The notes under the pieces were generated by a model that was not told where the DNA came from, did not search any database, and worked only from the letters and a program-made list of their open reading frames with translations. The translations under genes were made by a program, and so were the position numbers. From Bacillus sp. es.036 (lineage in GTDB: Bacteria > Bacillota > Bacilli > Bacillales > Guptibacillaceae), in contig NZ_PDIZ01000001.1 in the NCBI RefSeq assembly GCF_002563635.1, positions 3,534,001 through 3,598,000 of the forward strand: DNA of 64,000 nt, read 5' to 3'. This document shows positions 18,080-29,613 of this stretch, piece after piece. Within the stretch, counting starts at the first letter, position 1. The number at the start of each line of letters is the position of its first letter.

Positions 18080-18643
18080 ATGGCAAAGTATAGTGAAAAA
18101 TTTAAATTAGAAGTGGTAATGGAGTATCTCCAAGGATCTCTGGGATACACTTTATTAGCCAAAAAGTATGGAATGCCTCATAAATCTCCCATCATTGGTT
18201 GGGTTCGTGCTTATCAAACCTTTGGAGAAGAGGGATTGAAGAGAAAGCGTTCAAGACAAGTCTTCCCTGTCCAATTTAAGTTAAATGTATTAAACTTTAT
18301 GAAACAGACAGGCGCTTCTTATCGGGAGACTGCGATTGCCTTTAAAATGAACAATCCTTCGTTAATTGCGAATTGGTCTAGTACATTACGGAAGGAAGGA
18401 ATCGGAGGCCTCCAAGAAAAAGCGAAAGGACGGCCACCTATGCCAAAAAATCACAAACAACAATCATCGAAATCAGAAAAAGAGTTAACGCGTGAAGAAC
18501 AACTAGAACGCGAAAATGAGCTTCTGCGATTAGAGATTTCCTATCTAAAAAAGTTAAAAGCTTTTCAGGAGAACCCGAATGCCTATCTCGAAAAGCACAA
18601 GCAGCGCTGGTATTCGAACTCAAAAAAGAAGGATTCAAATTAA
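18080..18643 (+). CDS. IS3-family transposase OrfA
   Basis: 187-residue DNA-binding component. Two helix-turn-helix units are visible (about 8-58: SEKFKLEVVMEYL..., and about 64-115: VQFKLNVLNFMKQ...), then a leucine-zipper-like helix (about 138-160, REEQLERENELLRLEISYLKKL). The C-terminus (FQENPNAYLEKHKQRW) is characteristic of IS150-group OrfA. Two in-frame A AAA AAG heptamers occur at 18547-18553 and 18622-18628; the second, 15 nt before the stop codon, is the more likely -1 frameshift site for making OrfAB. Confidence 0.88.
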   Translation: MAKYSEKFKLEVVMEYLQGSLGYTLLAKKYGMPHKSPIIGWVRAYQTFGEEGLKRKRSRQVFPVQFKLNVLNFMKQTGASYRETAIAFKMNNPSLIANWSSTLRKEGIGGLQEKAKGRPPMPKNHKQQSSKSEKELTREEQLERENELLRLEISYLKKLKAFQENPNAYLEKHKQRWYSNSKKKDSN

Positions 18644-18651
18644 AGGACGCT

Positions 18652-19470
18652 TTGCGGAGAGTAGCCATTCCCGAGGCCACCTATCATTACCAGGTAACGC
18701 AATTAAAGAACGAAGATCCAAATAAAGAGTGGAAAGAAGTGATCAAGGAACTCTTCCATAAGCACGAGGGAAAATACGGATATCGCCGCATTTACTTAGC
18801 GCTTCGAAACCAGGGATATGTCATCAACCACAAAAAAGTGCAACGAATGATGAGTGAGTTGGGATTGAAGTGTGAAAAATTCACTCGGAAATCCCGGTAT
18901 AAATCGTACAAAGGTACGGTTGGAAAAGTGGCTCAAAACCGATTGAAACGCAGATTCAATACGTCCGTCCGTCTCCAAAAAATTGTCACAGATGTGACTG
19001 AATTTAAATGTAGAGGAAATGAAAAGCTTTATTTGAGCCCGATGATGGACTTATTTAATGGAGAAATTGTTTCTTTTGGGATTTCCAACCGACCCGCACT
19101 CAATCTTGTTTTAAAGCCTTTGACTGAAGCGTTAGAAACCATTCGAACGGAAGCCAAATATCGGACCACCATCCACTCAGATCAAGGCTGGCATTATCAG
19201 CACAACACGTGGGTGAAGACATTAAAGAAGAATCGAATCTTCCAGAGTATGTCCAGAAAAGCAACCTGTGCCGATAATGCGGCCATGGAGAACTTCTTCG
19301 GGATTCTCAAACAAGAAATGTATTATGGAGAAGAGCTTGTCTCTTATGAAGAACTGAAAAGAAAACTTGAGGTATACGTGGACTATTATAACCATGAACG
19401 CGTAAAAGCAAAATTGGCTGGTTTAAGCCCGATACAATATCGAACTCAAACCAGCCAAACAGCTGCATAA
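18652..19470 (+). CDS. IS3-family transposase OrfB (DDE catalytic domain)
   Basis: 272 residues counted from a TTG at 18652; the same frame stays open back to and past both slippery sites, and no ATG with a ribosome-binding site is present, so OrfB is probably made mainly as a 463-residue OrfAB frameshift product. The catalytic triad is visible as DVTEFK (first Asp), HSDQGWHYQ (second Asp) and NFFGILKQEM (Glu), within an rve integrase-core domain preceded by the HTH_21 segment (HKKVQRMMSELGL). The conserved Tyr-rich C-terminus VDYYNHERVKAKLAGLSP is intact. Confidence 0.88.
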   Translation: MRRVAIPEATYHYQVTQLKNEDPNKEWKEVIKELFHKHEGKYGYRRIYLALRNQGYVINHKKVQRMMSELGLKCEKFTRKSRYKSYKGTVGKVAQNRLKRRFNTSVRLQKIVTDVTEFKCRGNEKLYLSPMMDLFNGEIVSFGISNRPALNLVLKPLTEALETIRTEAKYRTTIHSDQGWHYQHNTWVKTLKKNRIFQSMSRKATCADNAAMENFFGILKQEMYYGEELVSYEELKRKLEVYVDYYNHERVKAKLAGLSPIQYRTQTSQTAA

Positions 19471-25084: not shown

Positions 25085-26944
25085 ATGCTCGGAGCTTTAC
25101 AACGCATTGGTAAGTCATTGATGCTTCCGATTGCCGTACTTCCGGCTGCAGCCTTGCTACTAAGGTTGGGACATCCTGATTTTTTTGACTTACCCTTCGT
25201 AGCTGCAGCAGGAAAAGCGATATTTGATAACCTTGCCCTTATCTTTGCAATCGGGGTTGCAATCGGGTTTTCAAAAGATAGTAATGGTGCTGCTGGTTTA
25301 GCTGGTGCTATCGGCTATCTGGTGCTTACACAAGGAACACTTGCGATTGATGAAAACATTAATATGGCTATTTTAGGAGGGATTCTCTCAGGTGTAGTGG
25401 CCGGATTACTTTATAACCGGTTCCATGATATCAAACTACCAACATGGCTTGGATTTTTTGGTGGAAGGCGCTTTGTGCCAATCGTAACAGCTACTGCTAT
25501 GATCCTGTTAGCTGGTATTTTCGGTTTTGTGTGGCCACCTATTCAAGATGCAATCAACGCCCTTGGAGAATGGATTATCGGTGCAGGAGCATTAGGTGTC
25601 GGTGTATTTGGGTTCTTAAATAGACTTCTCATTCCATTTGGCTTACATCACGTTTTAAATAGTTTTCTATGGTTTGTTTTCGGTGAGTATAATGGCGCAA
25701 CAGGAGATCTGAATCGATTCTTTGCAGAGGATCCTTCTGCCGGAATTTTCATGGCTGGCTTCTTCCCGATCATGATGTTCGGGCTACCTGCAGCGTGTTT
25801 TGCGATGATTGCTGCGGCTAAAAAAGACAGAAGAGCTGAAGTAAGCGGAATGTTAATCGGTATTGCGTTTGCATCGTTCTTAACAGGTATTACTGAACCG
25901 ATTGAATTCGCCTTCATGTTCTTATCACCTTTATTATATGGGATTCACGCTCTTTTAACAGCTAGCTCAATGGTCCTCGCTTACGTTCTAGACATCCACC
26001 ATGGATTTGGCTTCTCTGCCGGCGCAATTGACTTTTTCCTTAACTATGGACTAGCACAGAAAGCAGGACTATTACTTGTTATTGGTTTGATTTACGGAGT
26101 CATTTACTTTGTGGTCTTCTACTTCTTAATAAAAAAATTAAACTTAAAAACACCTGGTCGAGAAGACGAAGATATGTCCATAGAAGCGCCTTCTCCTTCT
26201 GAAGGTGACAAATACGATGTGATGGCTGGACATTTTATTCGCAGCATTGGCGGCATCGATAACATTTCATCCATCGATAACTGCACAACAAGACTTCGTT
26301 TACAAATGAATGATATGTCAAAAGTAGATGAAGCAGAATTAAAGCGTTATGGGGCTCGAGGCGTCGTCAAAGTGAATAATCGTAACCTACAAATTATCGT
26401 CGGAACAGATGTTGAATTTGTGGCGGATGCAATGCGGGGCACACGCTCAACTCCTTCTAAAGAGACTACTAACGCTAGAACATTAACAAAAACGATAGCA
26501 GATCAAGCGTTTATTATGCCAGTTAAAGGAAAGATTATTCCATTGAAAGAAGTTCCAGATGAAGTCTTTTCTGCAGGAATGATGGGGGATGGTTTCGCCA
26601 TTCTTCCTGAAGACGGCCATTTTGTTTCGCCTGTTGACGGCGAAGTAATAAGCGTATTCCCTACAAAGCATGCAGTCGGTATCAAATCTGAAAGTGGAGT
26701 CGAAATATTGATACATGTCGGCATCGATACGGTCAATTTAAAAGGCGAAGGGTTTACGACTCATGTAAATGAAGGAGACACAATCAAGAGAGGGGATAAT
26801 CTAATGACTGTTGATTTAAGTAGCCTCAGACGTACTGTACCATCTCTTGCCACTCCAGTCATTTTCACAAACTTACAAACGTTAAAAATTAAAAAGACAG
26901 GAAACATTCCTCAAGGCGATAGCGGGATCATTTCAATTGATTAA
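25085..26944 (+). CDS. nagE: N-acetylglucosamine-specific PTS enzyme IICBA
   Basis: 619-residue fused phosphotransferase transporter that imports and phosphorylates N-acetylglucosamine. Domains in order: EIIC (about 1-360, some 10 membrane segments, glucose/GlcNAc type with the ITEPIEFAFMFLSP motif), EIIB (about 380-455, phosphocysteine C400 in NCTTRLRL) and EIIA (about 475-619, phosphohistidine H544 in EILIHVGIDTV). The IICBA order matches E. coli NagE, whereas B. subtilis NagP lacks EIIA. Specificity for GlcNAc rests on the divergent nagAB-nagR operon and shared NagR sites. ATG at 25085; RBS AAAGGGG. Confidence 0.92.
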   Translation: MLGALQRIGKSLMLPIAVLPAAALLLRLGHPDFFDLPFVAAAGKAIFDNLALIFAIGVAIGFSKDSNGAAGLAGAIGYLVLTQGTLAIDENINMAILGGILSGVVAGLLYNRFHDIKLPTWLGFFGGRRFVPIVTATAMILLAGIFGFVWPPIQDAINALGEWIIGAGALGVGVFGFLNRLLIPFGLHHVLNSFLWFVFGEYNGATGDLNRFFAEDPSAGIFMAGFFPIMMFGLPAACFAMIAAAKKDRRAEVSGMLIGIAFASFLTGITEPIEFAFMFLSPLLYGIHALLTASSMVLAYVLDIHHGFGFSAGAIDFFLNYGLAQKAGLLLVIGLIYGVIYFVVFYFLIKKLNLKTPGREDEDMSIEAPSPSEGDKYDVMAGHFIRSIGGIDNISSIDNCTTRLRLQMNDMSKVDEAELKRYGARGVVKVNNRNLQIIVGTDVEFVADAMRGTRSTPSKETTNARTLTKTIADQAFIMPVKGKIIPLKEVPDEVFSAGMMGDGFAILPEDGHFVSPVDGEVISVFPTKHAVGIKSESGVEILIHVGIDTVNLKGEGFTTHVNEGDTIKRGDNLMTVDLSSLRRTVPSLATPVIFTNLQTLKIKKTGNIPQGDSGIISID

Positions 26945-26991: not shown

Positions 26992-27552
26992 TTATTTATT
27001 CATTTTATCAAGAAATCCGCCGAGCAAATCATCTACGCTCTCTTCTTCCTCTTCTTCAACCGCGGAGCTTTGCTCTTGTTTTGCCTGATCCCAATCAAAA
27101 TTCATTAGATCATCATCAGACATCTGTGGTAAAGCCTCAACAGGTTCTGGTGCTTCTCTCTGGACTGCTCTTTCTTCCTGCAAATAAAGTGCCTGATCAA
27201 TATCAATCGAGTTACTGTTAAATGATGCAAGAAGAGATGCAGCGCGTACAGGATCTGATAAAATTTGGTAAACGATGTTTCCAAGAAGCGCTTCTGAATG
27301 CTCATGTTTTAACCAATCCCTTTGGGCTTTGCTTAATCCCTTGGGCAAAGGTACAGTAATCGCATCATTATCGCGTCTGATCGTTTGCGTGACACCATCT
27401 AAAACATACTCCGCAATGCGGCTTGAGAAGTTCCGTTTTTCTTCCTCTTTTAACTTCTGCAGCTGCTTTAGAATATGATCAGGTGTATCAGAAGGAAGGC
27501 GAAAAGTGATCGCCTGTCCTCTCTGTAACCCCGTCATCCCCGCCTTTTTCAT
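26992..27552 (-). CDS. ParR-like DNA-binding adaptor of an actin-type partition system
   Basis: 186-residue protein directly after a ParM-like actin gene (12-bp gap). The N-terminal half (GQAITFRLPSDTPDHILKQLQKLKEEEKRNFSSRIAEYVLDGV) resembles a ribbon-helix-helix DNA-binding domain, RLPSDTP being the beta strand; the C-terminal half is acidic and unstructured-looking (EEEEEESVDDLLGGFLDKMNK), with a terminal amphipathic segment as in ParR tails that contact the filament. The call rests on gene order, RHH-like start and acidic tail rather than on strong sequence identity. ATG at 27552 follows AGGG at 7 nt; TTG at 27555 is an alternative. Confidence 0.72.
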   Translation of the reverse strand: MKKAGMTGLQRGQAITFRLPSDTPDHILKQLQKLKEEEKRNFSSRIAEYVLDGVTQTIRRDNDAITVPLPKGLSKAQRDWLKHEHSEALLGNIVYQILSDPVRAASLLASFNSNSIDIDQALYLQEERAVQREAPEPVEALPQMSDDDLMNFDWDQAKQEQSSAVEEEEEESVDDLLGGFLDKMNK

Positions 27553-27564
27553 CAAATCACCCTA

Positions 27565-28752
27565 CTAGTTTTTGACCTTGTTCTTTTCTTCTTTCTTATC
27601 TTGGTGCTGAGGCTTGCTATTTTTACGAGTGAAGTCAGAGATGAGCTTGTAGTAAGCATTCGACATCATCCAGATGCTTTCTTTCTCATCTTCAAAGAAA
27701 TCAATGTTGTACCCATCAAGGTTATTGTTCAACGTTTTAAGGTAATCTTTCAATACAATTGAACCGCCGCCAACGAAATAGCAGATTTCAGATTGAGAGT
27801 TCTTCTGCCATACGTTACGAAGGTGACGATATTGTTTCTTTGCAAGCTCCAAGAGAATACGATCTGTAATATCATGAACGCTTGTACGACTTCCGCGGAC
27901 CATAATGTGATTACGATCGTTCTTCTTCGTAATAATATCTACAACATCACGACGGCTATCGAGTTCTACTCCGTGCTTCGAGCGAATTTCTTCACGAATG
28001 GCTTCAAGCGACTCAGCGACGCCAAGGTTAAAGCCCTGTGCCTTATCATCGTCGACATTACGGTTTTTAATAACCGCGATATCGGTAGAAAGACCACCAA
28101 TGTCTTGAATTAAAATTCGCTTGTCGATCAAATCTTTATTAATGATATTTAAGTCGCTATCCATAACAAGGTTAATGTAAGCTGCAAATCCTTCAGGATA
28201 AACTTTCACTTCATCAAATTTAATATTTACTTTCTTACCTTGATATTTCGGTGTTACAAGAAACTCTACCTGGTGCACAGATCCAAGAAGTCTTGAACGA
28301 TAACCAACGTCTTTTCCTTCTTTTACTTCACGAAGCGGAAGACCTGTACCAAGCGTGTAATTGGCATCAATCACGCCGTTTTGGTTTTTGAAATTCGCTG
28401 AGTTCTTTGGATCAACTGCATCTAAAGCTAGAGAAGCAAACAGCATGACTAGTGTTTGGTCTTCTTCTGACTTTGCACTTCCAGGATCTAATTCAGTCGG
28501 GTTGTCACTCTTTGTTGCTAGATTACCAACTCGGTAGATCGCATTGTTATCCTTCAAAGCAGGGGAGTGAACGCGAATGTGAATACCGTCAAGCGGATCT
28601 TTCGTATCCAATTCTTCAATTCCAATAACCGGGCGATCTTCTATATCTCTTGCAATCACATTTGGTATGTATAGGTCAGATTCGATTTTTCCATAGATTC
28701 CTTTTAGTGAGTCGTTACCTACATCGACTGCTGCAATTCTTGAATTACTCAT
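27565..28752 (-). CDS. ParM/Alp-type actin-like ATPase
   Basis: 395-residue actin-fold ATPase. MSNSRIAAVDVGNDSLKGIYG is the phosphate-1 loop, RILIQDIGGLSTDIAVIKN the phosphate-2 loop, and ICYFVGGGSIVLKDYL the adenosine loop of actin/Hsp70-like ATPases. These proteins form filaments that push plasmid copies apart when capped by ParR bound to a centromere. ATG at 28752 follows AAGGATGG; an upstream ATG at 28773 overlaps that site. The downstream gene is ParR-like, and the upstream region is rich in GTNTAC repeats. It lies between nag and mqo genes, so the cassette is chromosomal. It is not MreB, whose sequence is quite different. Confidence 0.85.
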   Translation of the reverse strand: MSNSRIAAVDVGNDSLKGIYGKIESDLYIPNVIARDIEDRPVIGIEELDTKDPLDGIHIRVHSPALKDNNAIYRVGNLATKSDNPTELDPGSAKSEEDQTLVMLFASLALDAVDPKNSANFKNQNGVIDANYTLGTGLPLREVKEGKDVGYRSRLLGSVHQVEFLVTPKYQGKKVNIKFDEVKVYPEGFAAYINLVMDSDLNIINKDLIDKRILIQDIGGLSTDIAVIKNRNVDDDKAQGFNLGVAESLEAIREEIRSKHGVELDSRRDVVDIITKKNDRNHIMVRGSRTSVHDITDRILLELAKKQYRHLRNVWQKNSQSEICYFVGGGSIVLKDYLKTLNNNLDGYNIDFFEDEKESIWMMSNAYYKLISDFTRKNSKPQHQDKKEEKNKVKN

Positions 28753-28808
28753 AAAAATAATCCATCCTTTCATATTTAAAATCTAGTATTTCTACTATTA
28801 CATTAAAA

Positions 28809-28835
28809 TTTATAGAATTTTTCAACCGAAGTCAA
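28809..28835 (-). promoter_or_regulatory. Candidate promoter of the actin-partition operon
   Basis: On the minus strand, TTGACT (28835-28830), a 15-bp spacer and TATAAA (28814-28809), placed between the iteron region and the actin-like gene. The spacer is short, so the strength is uncertain. Confidence 0.4.
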
Positions 28836-28850
28836 TGAGCCATTCTATCT

Positions 28851-29035
28851 AGTTTACAATTATGTTTACAAGTACACAAAAACGTGTACACGTAAACATA
28901 AATTGTATACATGTACACGTTTTTGTACGCATATTGATATAAAGGCATGTGTACGTATTTGTATACTTGTGTACATAAAAAGTTTACAAGTATACAAAAA
29001 TGTATTCTTGTAAACAAAATTCGTACACATACATT
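28851..29035. repeat. Iteron region, candidate centromere (parC-like) of the actin-partition cassette
   Basis: About 185 bp with roughly 15 copies of a GTNTAC/GTAYAC/GTAAAC hexamer in both orientations. Two longer direct copies at 28864-28886 and 28982-29004 share 20 of 23 bases (core GTTTACAAGTA, then ACAAAAA). It lies immediately upstream of the actin-like gene, the position of parC in parMRC systems. A minus-strand reading frame across it is a by-product of the repeats. Confidence 0.75.
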
Positions 29036-29274: not shown

Positions 29275-29475
29275 TTACACTGCTATAGCAAATCCTTTCT
29301 TAACCGGGTTTTTCTTGCCGATTACCCCAAAAATGATGGCCAGAATAGCCAATGGATAAGGAATTAGAGGAATTAAAAAGAGGACAAGGCCGATAATGCC
29401 CAATACCATTGAGGATACAGCTAGACCATTACTGCTACTCTCTGGTTGAGGTGCTGTATTTACGTTACCTTCCAT
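29275..29475 (-). pseudogene. DUF4190-like small membrane protein, probably truncated by a frameshift
   Basis: 66-residue frame starting at ATG 29475 (RBS AAAGGGGGAATT). It has a polar N-terminus and one long hydrophobic segment (GLAVSSMVLGIIGLVLFLIP...ILAIIFGVIG), then KKNPVKKGFAIAV and a stop. DUF4190 proteins usually continue with a second transmembrane helix after the KGxAIAG turn. Here the next frame continues as SVTGFVTLGLKIWFWAGV (about 29230-29285 on the minus strand); adding one G at about 29287 would join the two and restore AIAGVTGF. So the gene looks like a one-base deletion, either real or a sequencing error. Confidence 0.55.
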
Positions 29476-29613
29476 ATCAAATTCCCCCTTTTGAACCTGT
29501 TTTATTTTCATAATTGAATGTATTTGAATAATGAGCAGTTTATTACAAAAAAGAAGCATGTAGCAGTTTCTTTACGCCACACGCTCCCATTTTTTTCTAT
29601 ATCTTCGCAGTGA

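Follow-up and report, generated by a model that had tools for sequence, protein, structure and literature searches.

Does a bacterial chromosome that already encodes the ParABS system also use an actin-type partition machine of the kind carried by plasmids? The question is raised by a locus of Bacillus sp. es.036 (contig NZ_PDIZ01000001.1, positions 3,534,001 to 3,598,000; this whole stretch of 64,000 nucleotides is called the window and coordinates refer to it), in which a gene for an actin-fold ATPase is followed by a gene for a ParR-like adaptor and preceded by an array of short repeats. The original prediction, made from the letters of the window, read this arrangement as a plasmid-type parC-parM-parR cassette that was either a fixed plasmid or phage remnant or a domesticated filament. 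We report that the locus is a conserved chromosomal ParMRC-type cassette and not an artefact. Our preferred reading, to which we assign a probability of roughly 0.6, is that the cassette works together with ParABS to segregate the origin region or to position it; DNA binding, filament formation, the direction of force and the role at the origin are the parts of this reading that we infer.

Results

The cassette encodes a ParM/Alp-class actin and a ParR-like adaptor

Judged by sequence, the product of the actin gene is an actin-fold ATPase of the ParM/Alp class. In alignments it keeps the nucleotide-binding motifs DVGND, DIGGLSTD and GGG, and its Pfam matches, all above cut-off, were PF22128 Alp7A_like_C (1.1e-37), PF21522 MreB-like_C (3.6e-12) and PF17989 ALP_N (4.2e-9). 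The PF22128 score of 129.6 bits, against a curated cut-off of 22, places the protein among the Alp7A-like actins, and the PHROG match was phrog_691 'partition protein' (1.4e-39). A profile built from 9 chromosomal and 8 plasmid actin sequences matched the solved ParMs 4xhp (4.2e-33), 4xe8 (1.2e-17) and pCBH ParM (1.5e-12). The structures 4xhp and 4xe8 (BtParM of plasmid pBMBt1) and pCBH ParM are the nearest solved structures by profile, and both proteins are plasmid-borne and distant. These searches, the profile comparison that the original prediction had proposed as a check, bear out its assignment of the actin. An AlphaFold2 model of the protein was poor (mean predicted local distance difference test score, pLDDT, of 52.4) and was left unused. 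By eye, the actin ATG at 28752 is preceded by AAAGGATGG.

The adaptor gene lies 12 bp downstream of the actin gene in the window. Its product consists of a ribbon-helix-helix (RHH)-type N-terminus, a helical middle, an acidic linker and a conserved C-terminal helix, DDLLGGFLxxMNK; among relatives the two ends are fixed and the linker is free to vary. The N-terminus reads as strand-helix-helix, the strand being seen in the sequence pattern only. A structural model of moderate confidence (pLDDT 65.4, predicted template modelling score 0.25) has helices at residues 25-37 and 42-52 and a C-terminal helix at 173-185, and thus places helices at the expected RHH helix positions but without the strand. 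In the profile check of the adaptor, the window protein matched no family of Pfam, NCBIfam or PHROGs at E 1e-3. Weak Arc/RHH-like profile matches (E 0.009-0.09) are in line with the strand-helix-helix reading of the N-terminus. Scans of 38 and 20 aligned adaptor relatives gave scattered weak matches only, the best being 0.0027. By tblastn (E up to 1), adaptor homologues were found in the same operon position in 17 plasmid records (8e-19 to 4e-3). Of the proposed RHH-like, acidic-tailed adaptor, the homology to adaptors of plasmid operons is thus established, and the pattern, the weak matches and the model make an RHH fold likely, even if a fold search with the model gave no match.

An array of palindromic hexamers precedes the actin gene

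The upstream region had been described as holding about 15 GTNTAC-type hexamers and two 23-bp direct copies. We found exactly 15 hexamers, and the copies, at 28864 and 28982, are identical at 20 of 23 positions. The hexamers fall into two sub-arrays, 28852-28918 and 28949-29028, set apart by a step of 36 bp, and their spacing mostly alternates between 8 and 12-13 bp start to start, giving a period of ~20-21 bp. When the same 200 bp were shuffled (5000 trials), on average 0.29 and at most 4 hexamers resulted, versus the 15 observed, and elsewhere in the window the density was 0.24 per 200 bp. A scan for further arrays that covered 633,573 of the 4,342,857 genome bases (271,868 of them round the origin) detected none; the second-best cluster of 220 bp had 4 hexamers.

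For comparison we used 80 named loci, the best 80 of 430 relatives in named genomes and hence a set biased to near kin. Actin and adaptor genes lie side by side in 80/80, with a gap of 5-19 bp, and an array of at least 5 hexamers within 220 bp is present upstream of the actin gene in every one. The parC-parM-parR order is therefore found in the window and in all 80 loci, as the original prediction had it. That prediction also turned on whether the repeats persist in orthologous loci, and they do. The number of hexamers within 220 bp was 5-16 across the 80 loci and 8-16 in 74 of them, against a background of 0.23 per 220 bp, and spacings of 8, 12, 20, 21 and 42 recur. A position weight matrix scan (at least 6 sites in 220 bp) recovered 78/80 of these primary arrays within its offset window, together with six second arrays; the two misses were L058, which fell below threshold, and L106, whose array starts at -462. 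The hexamer criterion (at least 5) gives 80/80 primary and 9/80 second arrays. The upstream repeats expected of a ParMRC system are thus present throughout as palindromic hexamers, not simple direct repeats, and form a putative centromere.

The spacer between the sub-arrays carries a core that is conserved and asymmetric; in a loose form it was matched in 33/80 loci versus 0.1% in shuffles.

Between the array and the start codon the number of promoter-like sites (28807-28835 in the window) is not above chance. The motif ATTGA occurs in this interval in 72/80 loci versus 31% in shuffles, and lies at one fixed spacing from a -10-like element in 43/80 loci versus 1.7% in shuffles; seven spacings were tried, which gave 43, 16, 5, 5, 0, 0 and 0 of 80. 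A promoter pattern with a 16-19 bp spacer was found in 0/80 loci, the conserved element having a shorter spacing. In the loci having the element, the nearest upstream hexamer is at a median distance of 31-33 bp and never at less than 11.

Some loci have a second array

In 9/80 loci a second array lies 1.27-1.51 kb upstream of the actin start and has no intact gene attached. These loci belong to a Cytobacillus group (L043, L045, L046, L066), a Peribacillus group (L050, L051, L074) and a Metabacillus group (L064, L089). A tenth candidate, L102, was dropped, as it had 4 hexamers, a downstream position and irregular spacing.

In the Peribacillus group the second array is followed by a degraded copy of the actin gene that comprises its first third. 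This coding sequence relic is 94-96% identical to the gene, whereas the arrays are 80-82% identical; the copy is therefore young or partly converted, and we treat it as weak evidence. The arrangement in these three loci is a tandem duplication of the array together with this part of the gene; the duplicate lies ~0.75-1.38 kb upstream of the intact actin gene, and its array has kept 7-9 hexamers.

In the other six loci tblastn (1e-3) detected no actin or adaptor relic beside the second array, and no open reading frame (ORF) of more than 116 aa lies between the two arrays. When the two arrays of a locus were compared, GT..AC positions were identical at 230/248 versus 924/1272 for the linkers, a comparison biased upward by the choice of loci for having hexamers. 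The persistence of a second array without an intact gene fits a cis-acting centromere, and the six loci outside the Peribacillus group suggest that the DNA site itself has been kept, as a centromere would be.

The cassette is carried by about half of the sampled order and forms one orthologue group

The presence of the cassette in related genomes, another check put forward originally, was followed through the actin. Among 101 relatives 54 gave actin matches, 51 of them orthologues (76-100% identity) and 3 weak. Of 397 genomes sampled from the order, 221 had matches, 201 with a best E of 1e-204 or below and 20 weak (1e-20 or worse). Across 398 genomes of the class, 24 reached the 1e-204 level, 8 of these outside the order, and the next best match was 1.1e-86 at 46% identity. 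In all three surveys the best match per genome was either at 1e-204 or below (76-100% identity among the matches listed) or at most 46% identical, with no intermediates. PF22128 had no match in the 14 named control genomes, B. subtilis included. Half of the sampled order lacks the cassette, and chromosome segregation in general can therefore do without it.

In a tree of the actins the 81 chromosomal rows form one clade apart from the 8 plasmid ParM rows (100/100). Named genera are often coherent, with Metabacillus, Pontibacillus, Pseudalkalibacillus and Alkalihalobacillus split, and the root is uncertain because the plasmid branches are long. We presume that the cassette has descended vertically. 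Four records are perhaps mislabelled: L043 (Pseudomonas sp. ISL-84), L048 (Sporosarcina globispora), L056 (Peribacillus frigoritolerans F-D2) and L090 (Paenibacillus sp. FSL R5-0490) are placed by the actin tree within Cytobacillus or Metabacillus.

Sequence divergence indicates that the actin is under strong purifying selection. In 7 of the 8 pairs its nonsynonymous divergence (dN) was 0.07-0.13, against changes at 56-70% of four-fold sites; the remaining pair, which is from within the genus, had a dN of 0.02. The adaptor evolves faster, with dN 0.29-0.38 versus 0.07-0.13 in the same 7 pairs. Outside the genus the actin is 76-88% identical, Mqo 66-79% and Spo0J (ParB) 57-68%; ParB is thus less well conserved than the actin.

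The cassette stays close to the replication origin

In each of the 72 genomes in which one contig carries both dnaA and the cassette, the cassette is upstream of dnaA, on the left arm and in the same orientation. These comprise 36 + 29 + 7 genomes from three surveys, 5 of them outside the order, and as they are related they do not count as 72 independent events. The cassette is on the strand opposite to dnaA and hence co-directional with the left fork. The distance between the two is ~32-319 kb, 18 of the distances crossing the record start and using rounded genome sizes. The position of the L101 cassette, at 1.32 of 4.42 Mb, is a record coordinate and not a distance from the origin.

The genes on either side vary, and no single neighbour family is present in more than 18/80 loci. 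The proposed synteny check had a split outcome: the origin position is kept in 72/72 genomes, but the flanking families are found in at most 18/80 loci.

As positional controls we took 24 genomes outside the genus that were chosen for having the actin gene and dnaA on one contig. For the actin gene, a left-arm position no more than 350 kb from dnaA was seen in 24/24, and the count for Spo0J is likewise 24/24. The mqo gene has such a position in 14/16 same-contig cases (6 on other contigs, 2 absent). For nagA the count is 2/9, the two distances being 347 and 349 kb; this gene is absent from 3 genomes and on another contig in 12.

A competing account of these positions is that the cassette is a real partition module that sits at its ancestral place by chance and has no special origin role. 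Arm and orientation are constant in 72/72, as they would be for a locus that had never moved, and mqo is similarly retained (14/16). Nevertheless nagA, which is equally near in this genome, stays within 350 kb in 2/9, and the neighbours of the cassette turn over. We regard the chance account as unlikely, and a constraint on the origin position of the cassette as likely.

Plasmids carry distant relatives of the cassette

The actin matched 86 plasmid records, of which eight loci were read. Their ParMs are 41-43% identical to the window actin, and their adaptors 28-37% identical in seven cases and 20% in the eighth. In 8/8 loci a short adaptor gene directly follows the ParM gene, and several loci are near replication, primase or ParA genes. 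The 500 bp upstream contain 0-5 GTNTAC-type hexamers and no long array; by eye, some GCATAC-type palindromes are close to the start codon. The plasmid adaptors are of 134-151 aa, and 7/8 end near an acidic tail of the FAxxTFLxFDDDD type. The cassette resembles Alp7A of B. subtilis plasmid pLS20 and the ParM/StbA systems of Bacillaceae plasmids (e.g. pBM69) in its Alp7A_like_C and ALP_N domains and in having the adaptor directly downstream. Unlike the Bacillaceae-plasmid systems it is chromosomal, has a 180-bp array and encodes a longer adaptor. By its appearance, the chromosomal form is a system of the plasmid type in which the site has expanded to a separate array and the adaptor has acquired a long tail.

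A sister strain, P. hwajinpoensis, has a plasmid (L116, NZ_CP156675.1) with its own ParM/adaptor pair at 42-43% actin identity. The pair follows a ParA gene plus a small gene by ~1.1 kb, and the plasmid has two partition types, as does the chromosome.

This homologous plasmid system in the same species would be in keeping with a chromosomal module that acts on plasmids, either by helping their segregation in trans or by competing with incoming plasmids of the same family. Such a role is left possible for chromosomal ParMs in PMC12270681. However, the eight plasmid loci, with their 0-5 hexamers in 500 bp and a different adaptor tail, fit this role poorly, and it leaves the origin linkage unexplained; we consider it improbable.

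The remaining question of origin is whether the cassette is a remnant of an integrated plasmid or phage. It shares its gene order with plasmid systems, and a phage collection gave 3 records with weak partial matches (25-26% identity). Viral contigs were scanned twice, each time with two peptide patterns and hence with limited reach; of the 42 and 47 pattern matches that resulted, none was confirmed. Against a remnant are the tight orthologue group, the intact frame, purifying selection, no close phage relative having been found, and no recognised replication or integration gene directly beside the cassette. Neither adjoining mobile-element genes nor the sporadic distribution of a remnant was seen; the distribution contradicts it. 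Given one orthologue clade, an origin position kept in 72/72 genomes and no confirmed viral relative, the suggestion of a fixed remnant has to be abandoned as very unlikely. A domesticated chromosomal system fits the distribution, clade and origin-position data.

The cassette coexists with ParABS

Spo0J is present in 47/47 genomes tested, 36 with and 11 without the cassette, and hence the cassette does not replace ParB. The claim that one chromosome has two kinds of segregation machinery is in this respect supported. We also considered the cassette as a stand-in for the polar anchor RacA and rejected it: a RacA match (NF009646, E 1e-3, the same 101 genomes) was found in 35/51 genomes with and 33/50 without the cassette, and at 1e-10 in 31 with versus 24 without. 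The cut-off of NF009646 itself was reached by 0/101 genomes, nor was it reached by the B. subtilis control.

These data bear on a domesticated filament with another job (sporulation origin anchoring, cell shape or other cargo), for which the array would be mainly an autoregulatory operator. The array does lie next to a promoter-like element, and the plasmid kin have palindromic sites near the start codon. Moreover, Spo0J is already at hand in all 47 genomes, and half of the sampled order has no cassette. But 5-16 hexamers per 220 bp, ending ~31-33 bp upstream of the -35-like element, exceed the needs of an operator. A second array persists in six loci with no detectable actin relic, the origin linkage holds in 72/72, and the cassette shows no inverse relation to RacA. 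Such another job is therefore rather unlikely, though of the alternatives to an origin role it is the one we take most seriously.

Neighbouring genes

The features of the locus are collected in Table 1. The cassette had been placed between nag and mqo genes. On the mqo side this is correct, with a small gene separating the array from mqo; on the other side the gene adjoining the adaptor encodes a phosphotransferase system (PTS) transporter (25085-26944), and the nag genes lie beyond it. The adaptor and PTS genes are convergent, and a terminator-like stem-loop in the interval sets the operon apart from the PTS gene. The ParAB/Noc genes are at 59.2-61.8 kb of the window, and their distance from the cassette was measured as ~30 kb and not the ~35 kb first given. 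The names PTS, nag, mqo, Soj and Noc were assigned from the sequences themselves and not by family search.

The small gene (29275-29478) has a sub-threshold DUF4190 match (5.7e-6) and is present in 2/80 loci. A plus-strand ORF pair at 18080-19470, ~7.5 kb from the cassette, resembles an IS3-type transposase as read from the sequence.

Table 1 Features of the partition cassette in window coordinates
Feature	Position	Strand	Description
Terminator-like stem-loop	26960-26988	scored on both strands	13-pair stem, 8 GC pairs
ParR-like adaptor gene	26992-27552	minus	186 aa from ATG 27552; TTG 27555 possible start
Actin-fold ATPase gene, Alp7A/ParM type	27565-28752	minus	395 aa; protein begins MSNSRIAAVDVGNDS
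Probable promoter	28807-28835	minus	TTGACT plus TATAAA or TAAATT, between array and start codon
Centromere-like (parC-like) array	28852-29028		15 GTNTAC/GTANAC hexamers, A+T-rich
Spacer between sub-arrays	28919-28948		core type TTGATxTAxAxGGATGTxTACA, conserved in part of loci

Discussion

The closest published work is that on chromosome-encoded ParMs, which were reported in Desulfitobacterium hafniense and Clostridium botulinum (PMC12270681, J Biol Chem 2025). The paper lists Bacillus tropicus Bt-cParM cassettes, stated to be conserved in several Bacillus species, and reports that Cb-cParR binds a chromosomal parC. As in those cParM systems, a ParM-fold actin and a ParR-like gene lie together on the chromosome, coexist with ParABS and are conserved within a genus; here the conservation holds between species, and the adaptor is present in 80/80 loci. 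Bt-cParM may overlap with our orthologue group. The profile of chromosomal and plasmid actins matches the solved chromosomal Dh-cParM1 (8x1i) only weakly (5.3e-5), with Cb-cParM not singled out. The Figure 4 legend of that paper gives no conserved cparC among Clostridium strains, and its available text has 0 occurrences each of 'dnaA' and 'origin of replication' and no origin analysis. In the literature searched, with subscription journals mostly outside it, we found no description of the origin linkage and arrays of this orthologue group.

With the plasmid ParMRC systems of R1, pB171 and pSK41 the cassette shares the parC-parM-parR order and, probably, an RHH-type adaptor (PMC9426499, PMC5016525). 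The R1 array is split in two and that of pSK41 has 20-bp repeats, which recall the two sub-arrays and ~20-21 bp period in the window. Unlike in R1, the promoter-like element of the window is beside and not between the sub-arrays. Unlike all three plasmid systems, the cassette is chromosomal, its palindromic hexamers occur in both orientations and a different core lies between the sub-arrays. In known ParRs a C-terminal tail binds the end of the ParM filament (PMC5016525).

If the cassette does segregate or position the origin region, adaptor dimers would bind pairs of GTNTAC hexamers through an RHH fold and could wrap the 180-bp array into a segrosome. With their C-terminal DDLLGGFLxxMNK helices they would next grip ATP-bound actin-like filaments at the growing end. 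Once the origin-proximal site has been replicated, filaments between sister arrays might push the origin regions apart or hold them. The filaments would act alongside ParABS/SMC and not in place of them.

Several points weigh against an origin role of this kind. The cassette is missing from half of the sampled order and from the control B. subtilis, and in 20 further genomes (15 + 5) the actin gene and dnaA are on different contigs. The origin linkage may be an inherited ancestral position, mqo being also near the origin in 14/16 cases. All of the hexamers could be operator sites, the second array of the Peribacillus group (three loci) looks young and the array-pair comparison carries the upward bias mentioned. 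Finally, the RHH fold is based on a sequence pattern, weak profile matches and a model of moderate confidence, for which Foldseek returned no PDB fold match at E 0.001.

The more far-reaching form of the proposal, that about half of the sampled order would have a second actin-driven chromosome machine beside ParABS, has in our estimate an even chance of being right. Such a machine would join an adaptor and a bipolar filament to a true centromere of one or two arrays; it would have a fixed place near oriC and would apparently predate the genera in which it occurs. If this is true, the absence of the cassette from B. subtilis would explain why it was overlooked in the model organism. With 201 of 397 sampled genomes of one order, an origin position, a visible array and a natural gain of second arrays, the question is directly testable. 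The data suggest that ParABS plus SMC, the picture drawn from B. subtilis, may not be the whole account in half of its relatives, and that the chromosomes of many Bacillus relatives may be moved by a second, unrecognised motor.

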